Translations under genes and position numbers: made by a program
Shown here: piece after piece, positions 4,790-26,915 of the stretch
Numbering within the stretch: the first letter of the stretch is position 1
How the letters are laid out: each line of letters opens with the position of its first letter
Source: a virus
Length of the DNA: 35,459 nt
Direction: 5' to 3' (one strand)
Virus record (IMG/VR): IMGVR_UViG_3300027861_000097
Location: 1-35,459 of that record
The notes under the pieces: model-generated
Database searches by the model: none
What the model was told of the DNA's origin: nothing
Seen by the model: only the letters and a program-made list of their open reading frames with translations

Positions 4790-5194
4790 ATGAGAAGTCT
4801 AATTAAAAAAGTACTGAGTGAAACTGGTGTACCACACACTGAAGAACCAAATTATTTGATAAGTAAATTAAAAAATAAGATTGTGGATGATTTGGGTAAG
4901 GTTTACCTAGATGTCACAGGTAACAAACTAGTACTACCACCAATAGATATTAAAATAGATGATACCATAAAAGATGGTAAGATAGCAGGATTTAACCATC
5001 CTAAAAATGGTGAGAATGGTAAAATGGGTATTAAATCTAAAGCTTTAGAGGATGTAGAATACTTAAAGTGGGTTATAACTCACGAACTTATACATGCCGC
5101 AGTTGGTGAAGACTTACCCAAATCAGAAGAACATGAGGGTTTATTTAAAAAATTAGCTGAAAAGATTAATTTACCTAAAGAATATTGGGATTAA
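4790..5194 (+). CDS. Small HExxH zinc metallopeptidase with capsid-targeting-like leader
   Basis: A 134-residue protein with a clear zincin motif THELIHAAVGE: His98, Glu99 and His102, with His115 in SEEHEGLF a likely third metal ligand, as in SprT/minigluzincin-like folds. The N-terminus MRSLIKKVLSE|TG resembles a T4 capsid-targeting sequence with an (L/I)xE cleavage site after residue 11, so it may be packaged in the head and trimmed by the prohead protease. There is no signal peptide or membrane helix. It is the only plus-strand gene within the head operon, has its own late-type element ending 7 bases upstream, and shares a bidirectional terminator with the DUF4494 gene. The substrate is unknown; a host target on DNA entry or a head-assembly role are both possible. 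Confidence 0.85.
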   Translation: MRSLIKKVLSETGVPHTEEPNYLISKLKNKIVDDLGKVYLDVTGNKLVLPPIDIKIDDTIKDGKIAGFNHPKNGENGKMGIKSKALEDVEYLKWVITHELIHAAVGEDLPKSEEHEGLFKKLAEKINLPKEYWD

Positions 5195-6507: not shown

Positions 6508-7242
6508 TTATTTTAATAAGAACTTATTTAAACTATCTAACAAATCAGAGTCATTCTCGATTACTAGTTTGGTCTTATTATCTTTTGTTGATTCCATAAA
6601 GGGTTTCAAATCTTTCTCACTCGAAGATATCCAAGAACCTGGTGTTGATGGTGAGGTAACGATGTCCCAACAAATTAACTCGAAATCGTCTTGTACAATA
6701 TTTTTACCATTTTCATTTTTAAGTGAACCGACCCCCCTAGAAGAAATACCAACGGTCCAACCTTTTCTAATCATATTGAGTACCTTATCACCAACAGATG
6801 AGATAATACCCGATTTAAGGTAACCTGGTGTTGTATCTAACTCCATTTTACCCATAAGTGTTCTACCGTTCCACCAAATCTCTGAAATCATATGTGATAC
6901 TCTATCAGCATCAATGATTGAAGATTCTGGGTGATTTAGTTCACCTAAAGAAGTACCCATATCGATGAATTCCTGATATCTTTTCGCCTCTCTTTTAAGT
7001 ATCTCTTCTGGGTATACTCTACCATTTTTATTTTCTACACCCCATTTCTGTAACACGGCATAAATTTCTATTTTATCTGGTAAAGGTCCATCTTGACCTA
7101 AATTTATTCCTGATTTAAATTCTTTAATTAAATTGTGATTCGAACATACCCCATCTTGGCAGGTTAGTTCAGATGATACAAATCCGGAATCATATTCCAC
7201 TAAATATCCATATCCTTCTTCACCTGGTTTTAATATTTTCAT
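6508..7242 (-). CDS. gp21: Prohead core protease, T4 gp21-like (peptidase family S80)
   Basis: A 244-residue serine protease that matures the prohead by cutting scaffold, capsid and internal proteins at (L/I)xE sites. Family landmarks are visible: NKNGRVYPEEIL (72-82), GELNHPE with the catalytic His104, and GISSRGVGSL with the catalytic Ser at 167 or 168. Length is close to T4 gp21 (212). The gene lies upstream of the scaffold and capsid genes as in T4, with three small genes between it and the scaffold. It has a late element at 7258-7266 and a terminator directly after its stop. A CQDGVC pair near residue 28 is unusual for the family. It is the expected processor of the many (L/I)xE leaders found in this window. 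Confidence 0.95.
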   Translation of the reverse strand: MKILKPGEEGYGYLVEYDSGFVSSELTCQDGVCSNHNLIKEFKSGINLGQDGPLPDKIEIYAVLQKWGVENKNGRVYPEEILKREAKRYQEFIDMGTSLGELNHPESSIIDADRVSHMISEIWWNGRTLMGKMELDTTPGYLKSGIISSVGDKVLNMIRKGWTVGISSRGVGSLKNENGKNIVQDDFELICWDIVTSPSTPGSWISSSEKDLKPFMESTKDNKTKLVIENDSDLLDSLNKFLLK

Positions 7243-7859: not shown

Positions 7860-8153
7860 TTAATCCTTACTTACAGACTTAGAAGAACCAACTACTTTAA
7901 CCACATCTAAGAACTTACCACCGAAGACGTAACCACCGAAGAGAACCATAGCATATTCTAATGCTTCAGTAATTAATCTAAACTTCTCTACATCTAAATC
8001 ACTATCCTTATGCATACCCGCAACTAACAATATACCTAATGTAATGTAATAAGCTATTACGGACCAAAACAAATAAACCCTACCTTGTGAGAATTTATTA
8101 TTCTCTGTTAACATGTCTTTAAAAATTTTCATAATTTTGTTTATTAATATCAT
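7860..8153 (-). CDS. Small two-helix membrane protein, possible holin
   Basis: A 97-residue protein with two predicted transmembrane segments: VYLFWSVIAYYITLGILLVA (about 27-46) and YAMVLFGGYVFGGKFLDVV (about 67-85). They are separated by a charged loop, and the C-terminal tail is short and basic. Size and topology suit a class II holin or another small phage membrane protein. An alternative start at 8132 (MKIFKDMLTENN) would remove seven residues. It lies 22 bases after the membrane-anchored GAF protein gene and ends in a terminator, so the two probably form a functional pair at the host membrane. No endolysin lies nearby, so the holin label is only a suggestion. Confidence 0.75.
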   Translation of the reverse strand: MILINKIMKIFKDMLTENNKFSQGRVYLFWSVIAYYITLGILLVAGMHKDSDLDVEKFRLITEALEYAMVLFGGYVFGGKFLDVVKVVGSSKSVSKD

Positions 8154-8175
8154 AATTAAAACTTTTAAATTGTTA

Positions 8176-8784
8176 TTATATTTTAAGGTGATTCATTAAT
8201 ACCCCACCTAAAGTAGATGCTTGTACCATTATATTATTTACAACATCATCATCTAGTGTAACTTTCTTTTTTGTATAATCGATACCTAAGACACCAATAA
8301 ACTTATCATCTATTGTTTTTATTGCAAACAAGTAACCAGATTTACAACCAGTATCTTCAGCAACATATTTTAACCCATAAGTTAAAGCCTCAACGTCTTT
8401 ATAATCTGGTATTTCAATGGTTTCACTCTTAACCAAACGATTCATGGATTTAGAAAATAAGTTAACTGGTATGTTTTGAAAATTTTGTTGAATCGATGAT
8501 ACACCAGTATTTACACTTTCGTACATTACAGAAAATTTAGCGATTGATTTACCAGTTGGGTAAAAATGTCCGCCATTATGGAATTGAGTTACCCAAATTC
8601 TGTCAGCTTTAACACCCTCCCTTATCTCCTCGATCTTATGTTGTACTAATTCACTGACCATTAAGGCTTCAGTAACCATGTCTGGTTTATTTCTTTTTTC
8701 TATTTTACTTTTTAATAGGAGTAATATTACTGGTCCCATTACACCAGTAATAAAAGCGATTATTACACTAGATAAGTCTTCCAT
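8176..8784 (-). CDS. Membrane-anchored GAF-like domain protein
   Basis: A 202-residue protein with one N-terminal transmembrane helix (VIIAFITGVMGPVILLLL, about 7-24), a basic stop-transfer (KSKIEKR), a helical linker, and then a GAF-like sensory fold. The fold has DRIWVTQFHNGGHFYPTGK (about 61-79), KFSVMYE, and a C-terminal half with SGYLFAIK, FIGVLGIDY and a final amphipathic helix. GAF domains bind small ligands such as nucleotides. Similar TM-GAF proteins occur in other large phages with no known role. Its neighbour is a two-helix membrane protein, so a membrane sensor that gates lysis, or a superinfection-related function, can be proposed but not shown. Confidence 0.75.
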   Translation of the reverse strand: MEDLSSVIIAFITGVMGPVILLLLKSKIEKRNKPDMVTEALMVSELVQHKIEEIREGVKADRIWVTQFHNGGHFYPTGKSIAKFSVMYESVNTGVSSIQQNFQNIPVNLFSKSMNRLVKSETIEIPDYKDVEALTYGLKYVAEDTGCKSGYLFAIKTIDDKFIGVLGIDYTKKKVTLDDDVVNNIMVQASTLGGVLMNHLKI

Positions 8785-8807: not shown

Positions 8808-9605
8808 TTATTCATCTTTTAGATTATTTTTTAAATCGTACAACTTCAATATATTATTATTTAAATCCCCCTCATTTTCTAACATGGAGTAAACTGTGTC
8901 TTTAGTTTCAAGTAACTTTTCTTTAATATCGATGTTGTTTTTGTGAGAATCTATTTTGGTATTTAGAATAGATATAGTCTCTTTTACTAAACTACTCACA
9001 ATCTTTTTACCATCTTCTTTATTATCCTCACGTAAAACTTTTAAGATATTCTTCTCTTCTTCTGTTAGATTAGAATATTTCTCATTAAATTTATTTGTAA
9101 CTATCTCTAAAAACTTTTGGGTATTCACACCCTCTTTCACATATTCATTATTATTATTCACTATTTCCTCAGATTCCTTATCCATCATCAACCAGTTGAT
9201 TAATTCAGACTTACTCTCCTCTATTCTATTCAATGTCGAAGCGTTTTTTTCTGTGGATAAAACTACGTCCAAATTTTTGTGTATTTCTTTTTGATTTAGA
9301 TTGGACAAATCTACACCATGGTCCTTCAATATAGACACTAACTTCTTATTCTCCAAAACCAATGGATTATTGTTAAACTCACTAAACAATGATAAAGATT
9401 CTTTTAAATAATCATTAGCCCTTATTTCACTCTTTATCGTATTGTTCTCTATGTTTTTATAAACAATAAAAGCAGTTTTTAATGTTTCACTTTCACTTAT
9501 TGTTTTTATAAATTTTTTGAATAAGATCTTCCCATCTTCACTTTTACTTGAGTAAGACTCAATTAACTTCTCCGTAAATAAATCTTTTAACGTACCAAAA
9601 TCCAT
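8808..9605 (-). CDS. Helical protein downstream of portal, possible prohead core component
   Basis: A 265-residue, Lys/Glu/Asn-rich, wholly helical protein. It begins MDFGTLKDLFTE|KLIESYSS, which contains overlapping (L/I)xE-type sites near the N-terminus. It has no cysteine, membrane segment or enzymatic motif. It lies 30 bases after the portal gene with its own late element in the gap. T4 places the small prohead core genes 67 and 68 here, which suggests a core or scaffold role by position. Sequence similarity to gp67/68 cannot be seen by eye. Confidence 0.78.
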   Translation of the reverse strand: MDFGTLKDLFTEKLIESYSSKSEDGKILFKKFIKTISESETLKTAFIVYKNIENNTIKSEIRANDYLKESLSLFSEFNNNPLVLENKKLVSILKDHGVDLSNLNQKEIHKNLDVVLSTEKNASTLNRIEESKSELINWLMMDKESEEIVNNNNEYVKEGVNTQKFLEIVTNKFNEKYSNLTEEEKNILKVLREDNKEDGKKIVSSLVKETISILNTKIDSHKNNIDIKEKLLETKDTVYSMLENEGDLNNNILKLYDLKNNLKDE

Positions 9606-9635: not shown

Positions 9636-11528
9636 TTAGGTTAATATATCTTTTTCATCGAAATTTTCTTCATTTAATAACACATCTATACCAGATGTCA
9701 TCATTATAATGTCCTCGTTTTTCTTTTTACCCTCTAATAAAAGTTTATCTATAACATTTTCATCACCCTTAAAACCTTCACCGAAGTCACCACTAGTATC
9801 ATCTCCACCGAAACCTCCTGTGTCACCACCGAAACCTCCTGTGTCACCACCGAAACCTCCTGTGTCACCACCGAAACCTCCTGTGTCACCACTAGTATCA
9901 TCTCCACCGAAACCTCCTGTATCTTCAGAATCGTTAGTATCATCACCCATTTTCTGACTCATTATATCCCCATATAATTTATCTACCTTGTCGAAGTAAC
10001 CAGTTTTAGTTATAACTTCGGAAGTTTTTTCTAACTCAGCAGACGCTGCTTTCTCTAGTCTTTGTTGTTCTAAGTCTAATTTAATCTCATCTTCAGACCA
10101 ATTAAATATGTTCTTCTTAGCCCATGTATGTGAGGTTGGTGCTATCCCATCAGTTGCCGCAACTAAATCCTTATAAAGTAATACCTTTTCTTTCCACTGT
10201 TCAACCTTCAACATCTCACCTTGAGTTGATGGGTTGTTGAGGGATAATTTAAAATTACTAAGTTCTTCATGAAAACCTAACATATATAAGTGTACAATAG
10301 CTATTTTATTTAATTCTTGTATCATAGCTTGTTGTATTCTATTGATAGTCCTAGCAAACCTAATATCCATCAACGCTAAATTCTTACCTTCTCCAGTGGG
10401 TTCCTCAAAACCTAGAAAAGTTTTAGGTACTCTAAGTGCTGTAACCATTTTTCTTTGAATAAATTGTATATCAGCTATTTGATCCAAATTAGTAGCCCCA
10501 GGTAAAGTTTCTATTGGACTTGGTGAGTTAGGGTCTCTGACTGGAACAAAGTAATCTTGGTCTACAGCCAAGGTGTTATATCTAACATCTAACTGACCAG
10601 TGTTGTTATCAGCTGTTTGTGTCCTTTTAAATTTATTAGCCACTTTCTGTACATAAGATTCTACATCCTCATCATCTATGTTACCAACATAAACCTTAAA
10701 AACCCTCCTTTCTGGTGCTCTCGTCACACGATACACCAACATAGCATCCTCAGCTAAAAGTAACTGTCTCCAAGTTCTTCTAACTTTATCTAATACAGAA
10801 GTACCATATGGTAATTTTCTATCATCACCTAATAATCTAAAGTGAGCTACTTCCCACGCATTAAAACTAAGGTTTTTAGATTTCCACTCAAATTTAACTT
10901 CTTTTTTTGAATCTTCGTTGGTTGTGGAGTTTGTTTCATTATAATCAAAGTTATTGGAATCACTCCTACTTATCTCTATGTTGGTTAGTTGTGTTGCTCC
11001 TATAACACCATATTTATAATTTAATTTTAAGTGTACAAAGTTGTCACCATATTTACAGGTGTTCCTAGTCCACATAGGTAGATTAGAATGGATATCTAAA
11101 ACATTAAAGAACAAATCCTCTAAAACTTTTTTAATTCTAGAAGAATCTGAATAAATAGACATTATTTGTCCTTGTTCATTTAAAGTACAACTTTCTTCCG
11201 CCATAGTTTCAAGAGCTACAGCTATTTCTGGTGTAAACTCCATAGCTTCATAATCCATATAAGAAGCTAACCTAGTAGTTTCATAGTAAGTAGCCTTTTG
11301 ATACATGTCATTCTCAATTTTCTGCCATTGAGAATCTAAGTATTTCTGTTGTTGTAACTGTAATTTTGTTTTTTCAAAGTCCTCCTTAGACTTACTAACG
11401 ATTAGGTCCTTGTCACCCAAACTATATTTTGGATTTAAGTTTGTATCACTCCTCATCGTTCCACCACCTTGTCCGAAAACGGTGAATAACTTTTGGTATA
11501 TTGTTAGATTATCTTTCTTATCTGCCAT
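9636..11528 (-). CDS. gp20: Portal protein, T4 gp20-like, with repetitive C-terminal tail
   Basis: A 630-residue portal vertex protein (T4 gp20 is 524). Family landmarks are EFTPEIAVALETMAEE near residue 97, AWEVAHFRL...LPYGTSVLDKVRRTWRQLLLAEDAMLVYRVTRAPERRVFKVYVG in broken blocks around 220-280, and a later clip/stem region with GEGKNLALMDIRFARTINRI. Twelve copies form the DNA-packaging and tail-attachment ring. The C-terminal extension is unusual: residues about 535-581 contain tandem GGFGGDT units separated by DDTSGD, followed by an acidic segment. The late element at 11562-11570 lies 33 bases upstream. The order terminase, 82-aa protein, portal lacks the tail sheath and tube genes found between 17 and 20 in T4. 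Confidence 0.93.
   Translation of the reverse strand: MADKKDNLTIYQKLFTVFGQGGGTMRSDTNLNPKYSLGDKDLIVSKSKEDFEKTKLQLQQQKYLDSQWQKIENDMYQKATYYETTRLASYMDYEAMEFTPEIAVALETMAEESCTLNEQGQIMSIYSDSSRIKKVLEDLFFNVLDIHSNLPMWTRNTCKYGDNFVHLKLNYKYGVIGATQLTNIEISRSDSNNFDYNETNSTTNEDSKKEVKFEWKSKNLSFNAWEVAHFRLLGDDRKLPYGTSVLDKVRRTWRQLLLAEDAMLVYRVTRAPERRVFKVYVGNIDDEDVESYVQKVANKFKRTQTADNNTGQLDVRYNTLAVDQDYFVPVRDPNSPSPIETLPGATNLDQIADIQFIQRKMVTALRVPKTFLGFEEPTGEGKNLALMDIRFARTINRIQQAMIQELNKIAIVHLYMLGFHEELSNFKLSLNNPSTQGEMLKVEQWKEKVLLYKDLVAATDGIAPTSHTWAKKNIFNWSEDEIKLDLEQQRLEKAASAELEKTSEVITKTGYFDKVDKLYGDIMSQKMGDDTNDSEDTGGFGGDDTSGDTGGFGGDTGGFGGDTGGFGGDTGGFGGDDTSGDFGEGFKGDENVIDKLLLEGKKKNEDIIMMTSGIDVLLNEENFDEKDILT
9787..9921. repeat. 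Tandem 21-bp coding repeats in portal gene
   Basis: Four adjacent 21-bp units begin at 9805, 9826, 9847 and 9868, and a fifth follows at 9904 after a 15-bp spacer. A CACTAGTATCATCTCCACC block flanks both ends. They encode GGFGGDT heptads. The near-identity at DNA level suggests recent expansion and possible length variation. Confidence 0.9.
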
Positions 11529-22283: not shown

Positions 22284-24749
22284 ATGAAGAACATGAACAA
22301 AGAAATAAAAGACATAATCAAGAGGTCTTACACAGAATCACTTAATTCTGGTTCTAACACAATTGAACCTGTTCACATATTAATAGCCCTTATAAGTGAT
22401 AATGATAACATAGTAATAGAAACCCTACAATCAATGGGTTATGATGTAGAGGATTTAATTTCTAGGTTAGAGGGATATTTAAGATTAAAAGTAAAAAACC
22501 CTAACTTAAAGAAAAAATTACTATATTTGAACAATGAATCCAATTCGGTAATTAATAGTTGTGAATTGGAGTCAGATAAACTTGGTGATTCCTACGTTGG
22601 TGTAGAACATTTAATGTTATCTATTTTAAAGTTCAAAGAGTTGGGGTGTACTAAAGTTTTAACGAATAGGGATATAACATATAAAACATTTAAAGAAAAA
22701 TTAAAACAAATAAAAAAAGAAGTAAATATGAGTGGAATAGCGGACGATTTTAATGAAGGAAAAGGTAGTTATTATAAAAAATCCAAAGGTGAAAAAACAG
22801 ACACACCTATCTTAGATAATTTTGGTAGAGATATAACTAAATTAGCTGAACAAGGTAAAATAGACCCTATTATAGGTCGTAATGACGAAATAGAGAGAGT
22901 TACACAAGTTTTGTCCAGAAGAAAGAAAAACAACCCACTATTAATTGGTGAACCAGGTGTAGGTAAAACCGCCATTGTTGAGGGGTTGGCTCTAAAAATT
23001 ATTGAAAAGAAGTGTCCTAGGGTACTTTTTGACAAAAGAGTTGTTTCACTAGATTTAGCTCTACTAGTTGCTGGTACAAAATATAGGGGTCAGTTTGAAG
23101 AGAGACTTAAAGGTATTATGGATGAGTTAGAAAAAACTTTTGATGTTATATTGTTTATTGATGAAATACATACAATGGTTGGAGCTGGTAATTCGTCTGG
23201 TTCTTTAGACGCTTCTAACATACTTAAACCAGCTTTAGCTAGGGGTGAGATACAATGTATCGGAGCAACCACTTTAGATGAGTTCAGAGAAAACTTTGAA
23301 AAAGACGGAGCTCTAACGAGAAGATTTCAAACCGTGTTAATAGAACCACCTTCTAATGAAGACACTTTAACAATACTTAATAATATTAAAGACCGTTATG
23401 AAGACCATCATAAAGTTTCCTACACAGAGGAATCGATAAAAGCTTGTGTTCAACTAGCTGGTAGATATATCACAGACAGAGAACAACCAGATAAATCTAT
23501 TGATATTTTAGATGAGGTGGGGGCTAGAAGTCAAACTAAAATTGAGGCACCTAAAGAAATTATTACTTTAGAAGAAAGTATTTCAAAAATAGATGAAAAA
23601 AAGAAGACCGTAATTAAAGCACAAAAATATGAAGATGCTGCAAATTTAAGGGATGAGGAAAGGCGACTAAAACAAGAATTAGAAAACAAGACCACTGAGT
23701 GGTTAGAATCTATAAACAATGAACGGAGAGTGGTAACAGAAGATAATGTGGCCGAAGTAGTTGCTAAAATAACTGGTATACCAGTAAACAAAATCAACCA
23801 GTCTGACCTACAAAAATTAAAGAGTATGGCAGAAGATTTACGTGGTGTTGTTATTGGACAAGATGATGCTGTTGAACAAGTGACCAAAGCCATTAGACGG
23901 AATAGAATGGGTATAAAATCAGAAGACAAACCAATTGGATCTTTTATGTTCTTAGGACCTACTGGTGTTGGTAAAACACACTTAGCTAAAACTTTAGCTA
24001 AAAACATTTTTGGTTCTGAAGATTCTATAATTAGAGTTGACATGTCTGAATATATGGAAAAACATAGTACCTCTAAGTTAATTGGAGCTCCTCCAGGATA
24101 TGTTGGTTATGAGGAAGGGGGTCAGTTAACTGAAAAAGTGAGAAGAAAACCGTATTCAGTTATATTATTAGATGAGATAGAAAAAGCTCACACAGACGTA
24201 TTCAATATTCTTTTACAGGTTTTAGATGAAGGGTTTCTAACAGATAGTTTGGGTAGAAAAATAAACTTTAAAAACACCCTAATTATAATGACATCTAATG
24301 TTGGAGCTAGAAAGTTACAAGATTTTGGAACTGGTGTTGGTTTTGGTACCCAATCTAGAATAGACAATTTGGAGGATATTAGAGATGGTGTGATTAACGA
24401 CTCAGTTAAAAAAGCCTTCTCCCCAGAGTTTTTAAATAGATTAGATGATATTATAGTATTCAAATCACTTCAAAAAGAAGAAATTGGTAAGATTATTGAT
24501 TTACCTTTAAAAAGTTTGATTGATAGAATGTCTGATATGGGTTATAAAGTATCTATAACCACTAAGTTGAAGGAATTCTTAATAGAGAAGGGTTATGATG
24601 AAAAATATGGGGCTAGACCTCTAAACAGAGCGATACAAAAGTACGTTGAAGACCCCATAGCTGAAAAAATGTTAGACACCGAACTAAAAGAAGGTGATAC
24701 ATTAAAGATAGGTATCTCAAAAGGTAATATTACTGTGACAATAAAGTAA
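22284..24749 (+). CDS. clpC: ClpC-type AAA+ unfoldase
   Basis: An 821-residue Hsp100 unfoldase. Domains in order: Clp_N repeats (about 1-145), a first AAA+ module with Walker A GEPGVGKT at 222 and Walker B VILFIDEIH, a middle domain with a UVR-like motif (about 433-465, YEDAANLRDEERRLKQEL) that marks ClpC rather than ClpA, and a second AAA+ module with GPTGVGKT at 558 and VILLDEIEKAH. Loop residues VGF at 685-687 correspond to the ClpP-docking tripeptide. Arginine fingers and both sensor regions appear intact. No clpP lies in the window, so it probably works with host ClpP. It has an early, host-like promoter that diverges from the KTSC operon, and a bidirectional terminator after it. Confidence 0.95.
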   Translation: MKNMNKEIKDIIKRSYTESLNSGSNTIEPVHILIALISDNDNIVIETLQSMGYDVEDLISRLEGYLRLKVKNPNLKKKLLYLNNESNSVINSCELESDKLGDSYVGVEHLMLSILKFKELGCTKVLTNRDITYKTFKEKLKQIKKEVNMSGIADDFNEGKGSYYKKSKGEKTDTPILDNFGRDITKLAEQGKIDPIIGRNDEIERVTQVLSRRKKNNPLLIGEPGVGKTAIVEGLALKIIEKKCPRVLFDKRVVSLDLALLVAGTKYRGQFEERLKGIMDELEKTFDVILFIDEIHTMVGAGNSSGSLDASNILKPALARGEIQCIGATTLDEFRENFEKDGALTRRFQTVLIEPPSNEDTLTILNNIKDRYEDHHKVSYTEESIKACVQLAGRYITDREQPDKSIDILDEVGARSQTKIEAPKEIITLEESISKIDEKKKTVIKAQKYEDAANLRDEERRLKQELENKTTEWLESINNERRVVTEDNVAEVVAKITGIPVNKINQSDLQKLKSMAEDLRGVVIGQDDAVEQVTKAIRRNRMGIKSEDKPIGSFMFLGPTGVGKTHLAKTLAKNIFGSEDSIIRVDMSEYMEKHSTSKLIGAPPGYVGYEEGGQLTEKVRRKPYSVILLDEIEKAHTDVFNILLQVLDEGFLTDSLGRKINFKNTLIIMTSNVGARKLQDFGTGVGFGTQSRIDNLEDIRDGVINDSVKKAFSPEFLNRLDDIIVFKSLQKEEIGKIIDLPLKSLIDRMSDMGYKVSITTKLKEFLIEKGYDEKYGARPLNRAIQKYVEDPIAEKMLDTELKEGDTLKIGISKGNITVTIK

Positions 24750-24992: not shown

Positions 24993-26915
24993 TTAATTTT
25001 TTTGTTTTTTTATCATATCCCTAATTTTAGATTTAGCTTTCATTAGATTGGTTTTAGAGGTGTTAATTGACACACCTAACCTCTCAGCTATTTCTTTATG
25101 TGATAAACCAGATAAATAATAAAGTTCTAACGTTTTTTTGTAAGCTGGTGTTAGTTTAGGGATAAAACCTATTATTTTTTTTATGTCATCCTCTTTTTTA
25201 GAATCGTCTTCTAAGGGTTGTTCATATTTAGAGAAATTAAAATCATCTATTGTATTATCAGTAGTCACATTTTTACTTTTCCTCAGTGAGTCTAAAATAT
25301 TATTACTAATAACCCTTCTAACCCAACCTTCAAGATTACCTTTACCATCGTATTTATTTAAGTTTTTATAAACCTTCATAAAACCATCTTGACAAAAATC
25401 TTCCGCTTTATCAACATTATTTGTATATTTCATACAAACTTGCTTTAACATTTTATCCCATAAACTATGGTAAACATCTTTAAATTCTAAAACTTCTTTT
25501 AATAAAGATTTTTTAGTCACATAATTTTCTTTTAACCCATCGTTTGTAATTCTATCCTTCAATAATCTCACAAATTCTTCTTGGAAATTTTTTAAGAATT
25601 CTTTACCATCCTTCCCAAAATAAGTTAATCCAGAAATATTAGTTATACACTTATGACCCCCACTATTAGCCTTTATCATATCCCAACCAGTAACAGATAA
25701 CAATTTTAATGCTTTTATTTCTCTCTCGGATAGAGAATCGTATGGTTTGGACATTACCTTTTTTATAGCTTCCACCCACCTTTCTGTTGTATATTCTTCC
25801 GAAGAACCTTTTGGTGGTTCCCCTAAACCTATAACACCCTCATCTGAGTCCTCAAACATCGCCACCATATCATTATAATTAAATCCAACTGACTCCTCAT
25901 TGAAGTGTTTACTTTTTTCAGCAAAATATTTAACACTATCTATCGTTATCTTCTTCTCTTTTAAACTAGTTTTAAAGACTTCTAAGACCTCTTCAGCTAT
26001 TTCACCTAAGTTTACACCTTTAAGTTCTCTATTCTTCTTAAACGGATTACAAGAAGCTTGTAACAAACCCATAGGCCAAACTATAACTAAAAAGTTTGCG
26101 TTTGGGTATAGTTTGAAGGGTACGTACCTATCGTAAGACCCTGGTTTAAATAAAGCTCCACCACCATATTGTGATATTATACCAAACTCCTCATCGTACT
26201 TTACTTTATCACTTTCACTCTGTGATTTAATATAGTTTTTTAGATTAACTTTCATAACTTCTGGTGATACATAACCATCTTCCTTAGCCATTTTAACAAT
26301 ATTTAAATAAATATTTTTAATACTAGGTGTAGAATTCATAACCAAAGACTCCAAAAACTTAGGTTTATTTTTATAGGCCAAAAGTAATTTATTTGTTACT
26401 AATGACATAGCCATTTTATTTTTAAGTAAATCATTTTCTTTATCATACTTAAAAATATAATTCATCAGTTCCTCTGGTTTAATATCTAGTTTAGCGAAAT
26501 CAGCACTATCAACAGTAGAAATCATTTTAATATCGTCAGAAGGGAATATGTCTTTAGGTGATACAACCTGTGAAATGGTCTCAACATTTGAACGAGCTTG
26601 TCTAAAAGATTTAGAAGCTCCCTTTTCAGCACCAACTTGTTTGTCATGGTGGTCGGTATGTATGATGAACATTGGTTTACCATGTGCGAAGTCAACCAAA
26701 ACAGGCATTACATCACCTCTAGCAGACGGTTTCTTAACAGCAAACTCTCTATCACCATATTGGATAACCTCTGAATCAACAACTTCTATACCATTACTTT
26801 TCAGATATTCCTTCATGGCTAGAGCTGTAGTAACACCATCTAAGTCTTGATGAAAGTATATTTTAGCTTTATTATATCTTTTAGATAAATCTTTTATATT
26901 TCTAATACCACCCAT
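24993..26915 (-). CDS. DHH/DHHA1 phosphoesterase fused to an ECF-like sigma factor
   Basis: One uninterrupted 640-residue frame with two parts. The N-terminal DHH phosphoesterase has HQDLDG (Asp24, Asp26), Asp75, the DHH triad Asp88-His89-His90, and Asp136. A DHHA1-like SGGHKC follows at 419-421, further away than in compact NrnA-type enzymes, leaving a long insert. Residues about 478-640 are an ECF-like sigma: region 2 with KAEDFCQDGFMKVYKNL and GWVRRVISNNILDSLRKSK, region 4 with KKTLELYYLSGLSHKEIAE and LGVSINTSKTNLMKAKSK. DHH enzymes degrade nucleotide messengers or short oligonucleotides; sigma redirects RNA polymerase. The fusion suggests transcription tied to nucleotide signals. It has a late-type element at 26949. 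No stop or frameshift separates the halves. Confidence 0.93.
   Translation of the reverse strand: MGGIRNIKDLSKRYNKAKIYFHQDLDGVTTALAMKEYLKSNGIEVVDSEVIQYGDREFAVKKPSARGDVMPVLVDFAHGKPMFIIHTDHHDKQVGAEKGASKSFRQARSNVETISQVVSPKDIFPSDDIKMISTVDSADFAKLDIKPEELMNYIFKYDKENDLLKNKMAMSLVTNKLLLAYKNKPKFLESLVMNSTPSIKNIYLNIVKMAKEDGYVSPEVMKVNLKNYIKSQSESDKVKYDEEFGIISQYGGGALFKPGSYDRYVPFKLYPNANFLVIVWPMGLLQASCNPFKKNRELKGVNLGEIAEEVLEVFKTSLKEKKITIDSVKYFAEKSKHFNEESVGFNYNDMVAMFEDSDEGVIGLGEPPKGSSEEYTTERWVEAIKKVMSKPYDSLSEREIKALKLLSVTGWDMIKANSGGHKCITNISGLTYFGKDGKEFLKNFQEEFVRLLKDRITNDGLKENYVTKKSLLKEVLEFKDVYHSLWDKMLKQVCMKYTNNVDKAEDFCQDGFMKVYKNLNKYDGKGNLEGWVRRVISNNILDSLRKSKNVTTDNTIDDFNFSKYEQPLEDDSKKEDDIKKIIGFIPKLTPAYKKTLELYYLSGLSHKEIAERLGVSINTSKTNLMKAKSKIRDMIKKQKN

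Follow-up and report, generated by a model that had tools for sequence, protein, structure and literature searches.

What is a gene for a membrane-anchored, sensor-like protein doing among the head genes of a phage? The question is raised by a virus record of 35,459 bases (the window, meaning the whole stretch of DNA analysed here) that carries T4-type head genes for a portal protein, a large terminase, a prohead protease and a major capsid protein, as identified with Pfam. Between the portal and protease genes, the reverse strand carries in series a 265-aa gene, a gene for a 202-aa protein (TM-GAF) that crosses the membrane once and ends in a GAF fold, a 97-aa gene, a terminator and a 145-aa gene. 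An earlier note had proposed that the GAF protein is either a ligand-responsive switch for a holin or a membrane anchor for prohead assembly. Our analyses indicate that TM-GAF is probably part of the phage lysis timer rather than part of its shell, because relatives of its gene often adjoin genes whose products burst the host.

A candidate sensor gene within a T4-type head cluster

The two open reading frames recognized in the earlier note are both present on the reverse strand, one encoding TM-GAF (8176..8784, -), in which FHNGGHFYPTGK corresponds to residues 68-79, and the other encoding the 97-aa protein (7860..8153, -). Their setting within a head cluster is likewise as the note described, with the portal gene on one side (9636..11528, -; PF07230, E 2.6e-73), the prohead protease gene on the other (6508..7242, -; PF03420, E 5e-28) and the gene for the major capsid protein Gp23 further along. 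The 265-aa gene (8808..9605, -) lies between the portal and TM-GAF genes, 23 bp upstream of the latter, and the 97-aa gene is followed by the intrinsic terminator that the note had also recognized (7838-7820, - strand; CTCCCTAAAATTAGGGGGG followed by a T run). Three terminator-like sites were observed in 2.4 kb, compared with 0.7 expected. Because the intergenic gaps measure 22-30 bp, the genes from the portal through the 97-aa protein are likely to be expressed as one transcript. Comparison with the two nearest relatives by the NG86 method reveals purifying selection on both the TM-GAF gene (dN 0.09-0.10, dS 1.3-3.1) and the 97-aa gene (dN 0.12-0.13, dS 1.0-1.6). The window's TM-GAF gene itself has no adjoining holin and endolysin genes.

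Elsewhere in the window, a DHH-sigma protein that the note had paired with TM-GAF as another nucleotide-related sensor is indeed encoded (24993-26915, -, 640 aa), but no tie between it and the TM-GAF gene was found. Its Sigma70 region 2 (Sigma70_r2) and region-4 models score above the cut-off, and its N-terminal DHH match is weak (E 0.003). The window also encodes a ClpB/ClpC-type AAA unfoldase of 821 aa (22284-24749, +). Unrelated window proteins, encoded at 4790, 5550, 6073, 20763, 21321, 30075 and 32806, share a short basic and hydrophobic start ending in E (e.g. MKKIIRLTES, MRNTIKKILKE), as do many proteins of the relatives. We take these starts to resemble the capsid-targeting leaders of T4.

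TM-GAF represents a widespread viral family

Relatives were sought in IMG/VR, where a scan with the window TM-GAF matched 565 stretches, 536 of which were confirmed by tblastn; the best 80 of these 536 constitute branch 1. A second scan, with the copy from Mel-JY01, yielded 107 confirmed relatives among 120, and the best 80 of the 107 constitute branch 2 (Mel-JY01-like). De-replication left 46 branch-1 and 42 branch-2 loci. Named phages with a copy include Microcystis phages, Nonlabens P12024S, the crAss-like cr127_1, Salmonella Arash and Bacteroides BS-TP1. A profile comparison between the alignment of 53 relatives (A1) and the group formed by the P12024S, L088, Arash and MaMV copies gave a probability of 99.9, and therefore we treat them as one family. 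Exactly one TM-GAF gene resides in each of 23 selected records. Searching IMG/VR with the copies from cr127_1 and LR756508 recovered no relative, and a GTDB scan for cellular relatives with alignment-derived patterns returned 35 stretches, none of them confirmed, although two strict patterns constitute weak evidence of absence. Two candidates from fecal scaffolds (H66 and H68) were dropped, since they encode proteins of about 450 aa in cellular-looking surroundings and are not TM-GAF.

Predicted fold, conserved residues and topology

The AlphaFold2 (AF2) model of TM-GAF, calculated from alignment A1, has a mean pLDDT of 86.5 and consists of a helix at residues 2-31 that corresponds to the transmembrane (TM) segment, a second helix at residues 36-58, and then the strand and helix order of a GAF domain. 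The proposal of a TM helix joined to a GAF-like domain thus stands at the level of the predicted fold, where GAF-containing PDB chains are matched with a Foldseek E of 3e-10 and GAF domains with a VIA Z of 19.4 (rmsd 2.2, 148 residues aligned), but not at the level of sequence, where PF01590 (GAF) gives no Pfam match to the window protein at E<=1. Distant relatives reach E 0.009-0.05 with PF01590, which is below the cut-off, and a sequence search of solved structures returned nothing significant, its weak profile matches being GAF photoreceptors. Because the model matches GAF domains whereas the PF01590 matches remain below the cut-off, the modelled protein is best described as having a GAF fold without being a member of the Pfam GAF family.

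Twelve residues are invariant in all 53 rows of alignment A1: R62, H69, N70, G71, Y75, G78, K83, S85, E89, P106, D130 and G167. Most of these group in and after strand 1, which suggests that the conserved stretch R62...QFHNGG..YPTGKS..K.S..YE (residues 62-89; 8518..8601, -) is a candidate ligand or partner site. Part of this group falls within the HNGG/PTG loop, which is modelled at low confidence (pLDDT <50 at residues 71-73 and 75-78). GAF is commonly a ligand-binding fold.

The TM segment occupies residues 6-24 (8713..8769, -; hydropathy 2.55), with no K or R ahead of it and many behind. From these flank charges, TM-GAF is predicted to insert with its N terminus outside and its GAF domain in the cytoplasm. 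The same bias, an excess of 3-7 K/R residues on the GAF side, recurs in 45/45 branch-1 and 40/40 branch-2 copies counted, a tally that comprises copies of at least 190 aa. Applied to T4 holin T itself, whose C-terminal domain is described as periplasmic in PMC11413866, the charge count is neutral.

Lysis genes adjoin many relatives

In 26 of the 46 non-redundant branch-1 loci, a lysis-type (holin or endolysin) gene lies within three genes of the TM-GAF gene. The association declines sharply with distance: 37 of the 264 genes located 1-3 positions from TM-GAF are lysis-type, compared with 1 of 511 at positions 4-10. The queries were eight Pfam-confirmed neighbours chosen from among those already seen, and their amidase and GH19 labels overlap through a common peptidoglycan-binding domain. 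Since they were drawn from the neighbourhood itself, the contrast between near and far genes inside the same loci is the useful one.

The partners belong to different families, including the PF23987 holin, GH19, Amidase_2, VanY/M15, M23 and phage lysozyme. PF23987 (Pam3-type holin) occurs in 8 of 23 whole records; in six of the eight it is located 78-336 bp upstream of the sole TM-GAF gene, on the same strand, and the remaining two records place it at distances of 7.8 kb and about 59 kb. GH19 genes reside within about 1.6 kb of TM-GAF in G003, G004, G008 and G010, and an amidase gene within 180 bp in G012. Distant relatives show comparable arrangements: TM-GAF, a 69-aa two-TM protein and Amidase_2 in L088; TM-GAF, an M15 peptidase and a PHROG-annotated holin in Nonlabens P12024S; and TM-GAF, a 66-aa protein, DUF6808 and Amidase_3 in Bacteroides BS-TP1.

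Among 882 proteins of the branch-1 loci, seven carry a C-terminal tag resembling INExIxRIKxLL, a pattern that was written after seeing them (L010 7277, L013 7123, L033 1164, L036 7110, L045 7308, L054 6627 and L062 6602). The bearers identified by a Pfam scan of some of them are cell-wall peptidase or amidase-type genes near TM-GAF.

A holin occupies the TM-GAF position in one relative

Contig L231 (11.7 kb) has the same head-cluster order as the window, yet the position between its 265-aa and 97-aa genes is filled by a 175-aa holin of the Phage_holin_4_1 family (PF05105, 32.5 bits against a cut-off of 22.2; PHROG holin, E 2e-5). This exchange is a single case. In a search of 24 records, PF05105 was detected in L231 and in none of the other 23. 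The portal ORF of the same contig (112-2676, 854 aa) includes an insertion that looks intein-like by eye (CLAGDTKIATPDG...).

The 97-aa protein downstream is a candidate partner of TM-GAF, possibly as holin or antiholin. It had been described as a two-TM protein, the layout of a class II holin, and its first hydrophobic segment is strong (residues 26-44; 8022..8078, -; Kyte-Doolittle 2.06), whereas the second is only weakly hydrophobic (residues 70-88; 7890..7946, -; 1.42, with a range of 1.16-1.57 in 11 relatives). No Pfam or NCBIfam holin model matches the protein, its PHROG matches are weak and have no assigned function, and no match was found in the phage records searched. The 97-aa family comprises 15 loci, and TM-GAF is the immediate neighbour in four of them (L220, L221, L226 and L232, the first two being contigs of L009 and L008), all with window-like head clusters. 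In the remaining 10 loci apart from L231, the gene is placed elsewhere and TM-GAF does not adjoin it. Of 11 records searched, most of which hold the 97-aa gene, six contain a TM-GAF gene. The pairing proposed in the earlier note is therefore real in one lineage, but it is not a general property of the 97-aa family. Because a holin takes the place of TM-GAF in L231, while most 97-aa loci lack an adjoining TM-GAF gene, it is the slot, more than the pair, that looks like a lysis slot.

Two of the four paired loci carry a further gene directly after the 97-aa gene, within the head cluster: a glutamine synthetase gene in L226 (4402-5511, PF00120) and one that looks alike in L232 (4381-5490).

TM-GAF as a probable lysis-module membrane protein

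On balance, we favour a reading in which TM-GAF is a lysis-module membrane protein, acting as a holin itself or as the gating partner of one, and carries a regulatory GAF domain. The protein would be made late, from a transcript that also carries the portal and 265-aa genes, and would insert by its single TM helix in the orientation predicted above. Contacts made by the TM helix, the GAF domain or both would then set the time at which the membrane opens for the endolysin. In this lineage, the co-produced 97-aa protein would be the probable second membrane component of a holin/antiholin pair. The exchange in L231 favours TM-GAF as the hole maker, whereas the separate holins that lie beside it in many relatives favour a role in gating a small holin; because such a holin is often next door, TM-GAF need not be the holin. 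As part of the same reading, and with similar slight preference, TM-GAF would putatively work like a T-type or otherwise regulated holin. The idea of a switch for a holin thus gains contextual support from the lysis neighbours of relatives, the same-slot holin and the fold and layout of T4 holin T.

A broader and distinctly more tentative proposal is that the family as a whole places a cytoplasmic GAF sensor on one TM helix, such that an intracellular small molecule sets the time of lysis via a small holin. The invariant HNGG..TGKS..KxS..YE stretch would read this molecule, and T4 holin T would be an inverted cousin whose GAF domain is read from the periplasm by the antiholin RI.

The GAF fold, holins and T4 holin T are all familiar, but we found no earlier account of GAF joined to phage lysis cassettes, nor literature linking a GAF domain or fold with holins, among the papers listed in a search that covered literature other than the primary T/RI structure paper. 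If the favoured reading is correct, an environmental phage family hundreds strong, to which no function has yet been assigned, would be recognized as a sensor-bearing component of lysis timing, and the control of such timing by metabolite or superinfection signals could be tested outside T4. Cassettes composed of a small holin, TM-GAF and an endolysin offer ready-made sets for expression tests.

Alternative explanations

Some BFVD matches of the window model bear the name T holin or class III holin, and T4 holin T was modelled for this reason (T4 NC_000866, 160221-160877, L169; AF2 model built from 15 viral-contig sequences). The model matches its own crystal structures at Z 24-26 (25.8), followed by domains of GAF type at Z 12-13.6, and a GAF fold is thus seen in the periplasmic domain as modelled. 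T4 holin T has an established role in lysis (PMC11413866), and its globular domain is reported to be regulatory and dispensable for lysis (PMC12162936); the word GAF is absent from the main text of both papers. A GAF fold in this regulatory domain would offer a structural idea of how the antiholin site may have arisen.

This resemblance gives some appeal to a sub-case of the lysis-module reading, judged separately, in which TM-GAF genuinely belongs, in diverged form, to the T-type (class III) holins and has a periplasmic GAF domain and an RI-like antiholin encoded elsewhere. Such a holin would account for the common fold and layout, and in the Arash copy, as in T, a basic N-terminal stretch precedes the TM segment. 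Moreover, PF11031, the T holin family, was found in 0/23 non-T4 records, so that it does not co-occur with TM-GAF there. Yet no sequence relation to T4 holin T was detected, as profile-profile comparison (hhalign) gave a probability of 0.2 and an E of 0.29, and TM-GAF has no Pfam match to PF11031; because of this, TM-GAF is not assigned by sequence to PF11031. The uniform K/R excess on the GAF side and the separate holins next door in many relatives also speak against this alternative, which we regard as doubtful.

A second alternative associates TM-GAF with the head or the virion, as a membrane protein (e.g. a prohead-membrane anchor or an ejected internal protein) whose lysis neighbours elsewhere reflect common late expression. 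Not all relatives adjoin lysis genes, and those that do not count against the lysis-module reading. The 42 non-redundant branch-2 loci have no lysis-type neighbours and lie in the head/neck region near Gp23, with PhoH directly downstream of TM-GAF in 42/42. Lysis neighbours are also absent from 20 of the 46 branch-1 loci, among them the window's nearest relative. In the window's 380-kb relative, the lysozyme gene is about 36 kb away, no amidase gene is near and none of three endolysin families searched is close. The G020 copy resides in what by eye appears to be a baseplate region, and no recognized lysis gene lies directly beside the Arash or cr127_1 copy. In the Arash record the copy is labelled ‘structural protein’, a label given to every gene of that block, but we found no publication that mentions Salmonella phage Arash by name and could support it.

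Head-cluster positions are indeed seen in the window, L220, L221, L226 and L232. Most branch-1 relatives reside outside the head cluster, and so the conserved position by which a prohead core or scaffold protein would be recognized was not observed. For this reason the earlier suggestion of a membrane anchor for prohead assembly is not favoured, though branch 2 lies inside the head region. The virion alternative is further weakened by the L231 holin and by the single lysis-type gene at distance 4-10, a tighter linkage than late expression alone predicts. We consider it unlikely, slightly more so than a diverged T-type holin.

Finally, a putative cytoplasmic binder of nucleotides or metabolites unrelated to lysis (a sensor or sponge, e.g. 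against cyclic-nucleotide defence) would suit the usual ligand-binding role of GAF, the invariant polar stretch and the predicted cytoplasmic domain, but it leaves the repeated holin and endolysin neighbourhood without a reason and is the least probable of these alternatives by a clear distance.

Comparison with known systems

By sequence, the closest catalogued families are PHROG 38864, 30125 and 14038, which match the window TM-GAF at E 2e-6 to 5e-4; they represent distant relatives and have no assigned function. By fold, TM-GAF is like the GAF domains of phytochromes and cyanobacteriochromes (PDB 7LSC, 6P58), with Z 19.4 over 148 residues at about 15% identity. It differs from these proteins in that the whole of TM-GAF consists of one TM helix and one GAF domain, with no output domain.

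Two established holin families are connected with TM-GAF by genomic position. Phage_holin_10 (Pam3 gp28, PF23987) is a neighbour of the TM-GAF gene, and Phage_holin_4_1 (PF05105) is its substitute in L231; both are different membrane proteins that lack a GAF domain.

A further close system is T4 holin T (class III, PF11031; PDB 6PSK/6PX4/6PXE), which like TM-GAF has an N-terminal TM helix, a long helix and a C-terminal GAF fold within a total length of about 200-220 aa. The invariant residues of the two proteins differ, and T4 holin T begins with a cytoplasmic amphipathic region, whereas about 5 residues precede the TM segment of the window TM-GAF. Judged by flank charges, the predicted topology of TM-GAF is opposite to that of T4 holin T.
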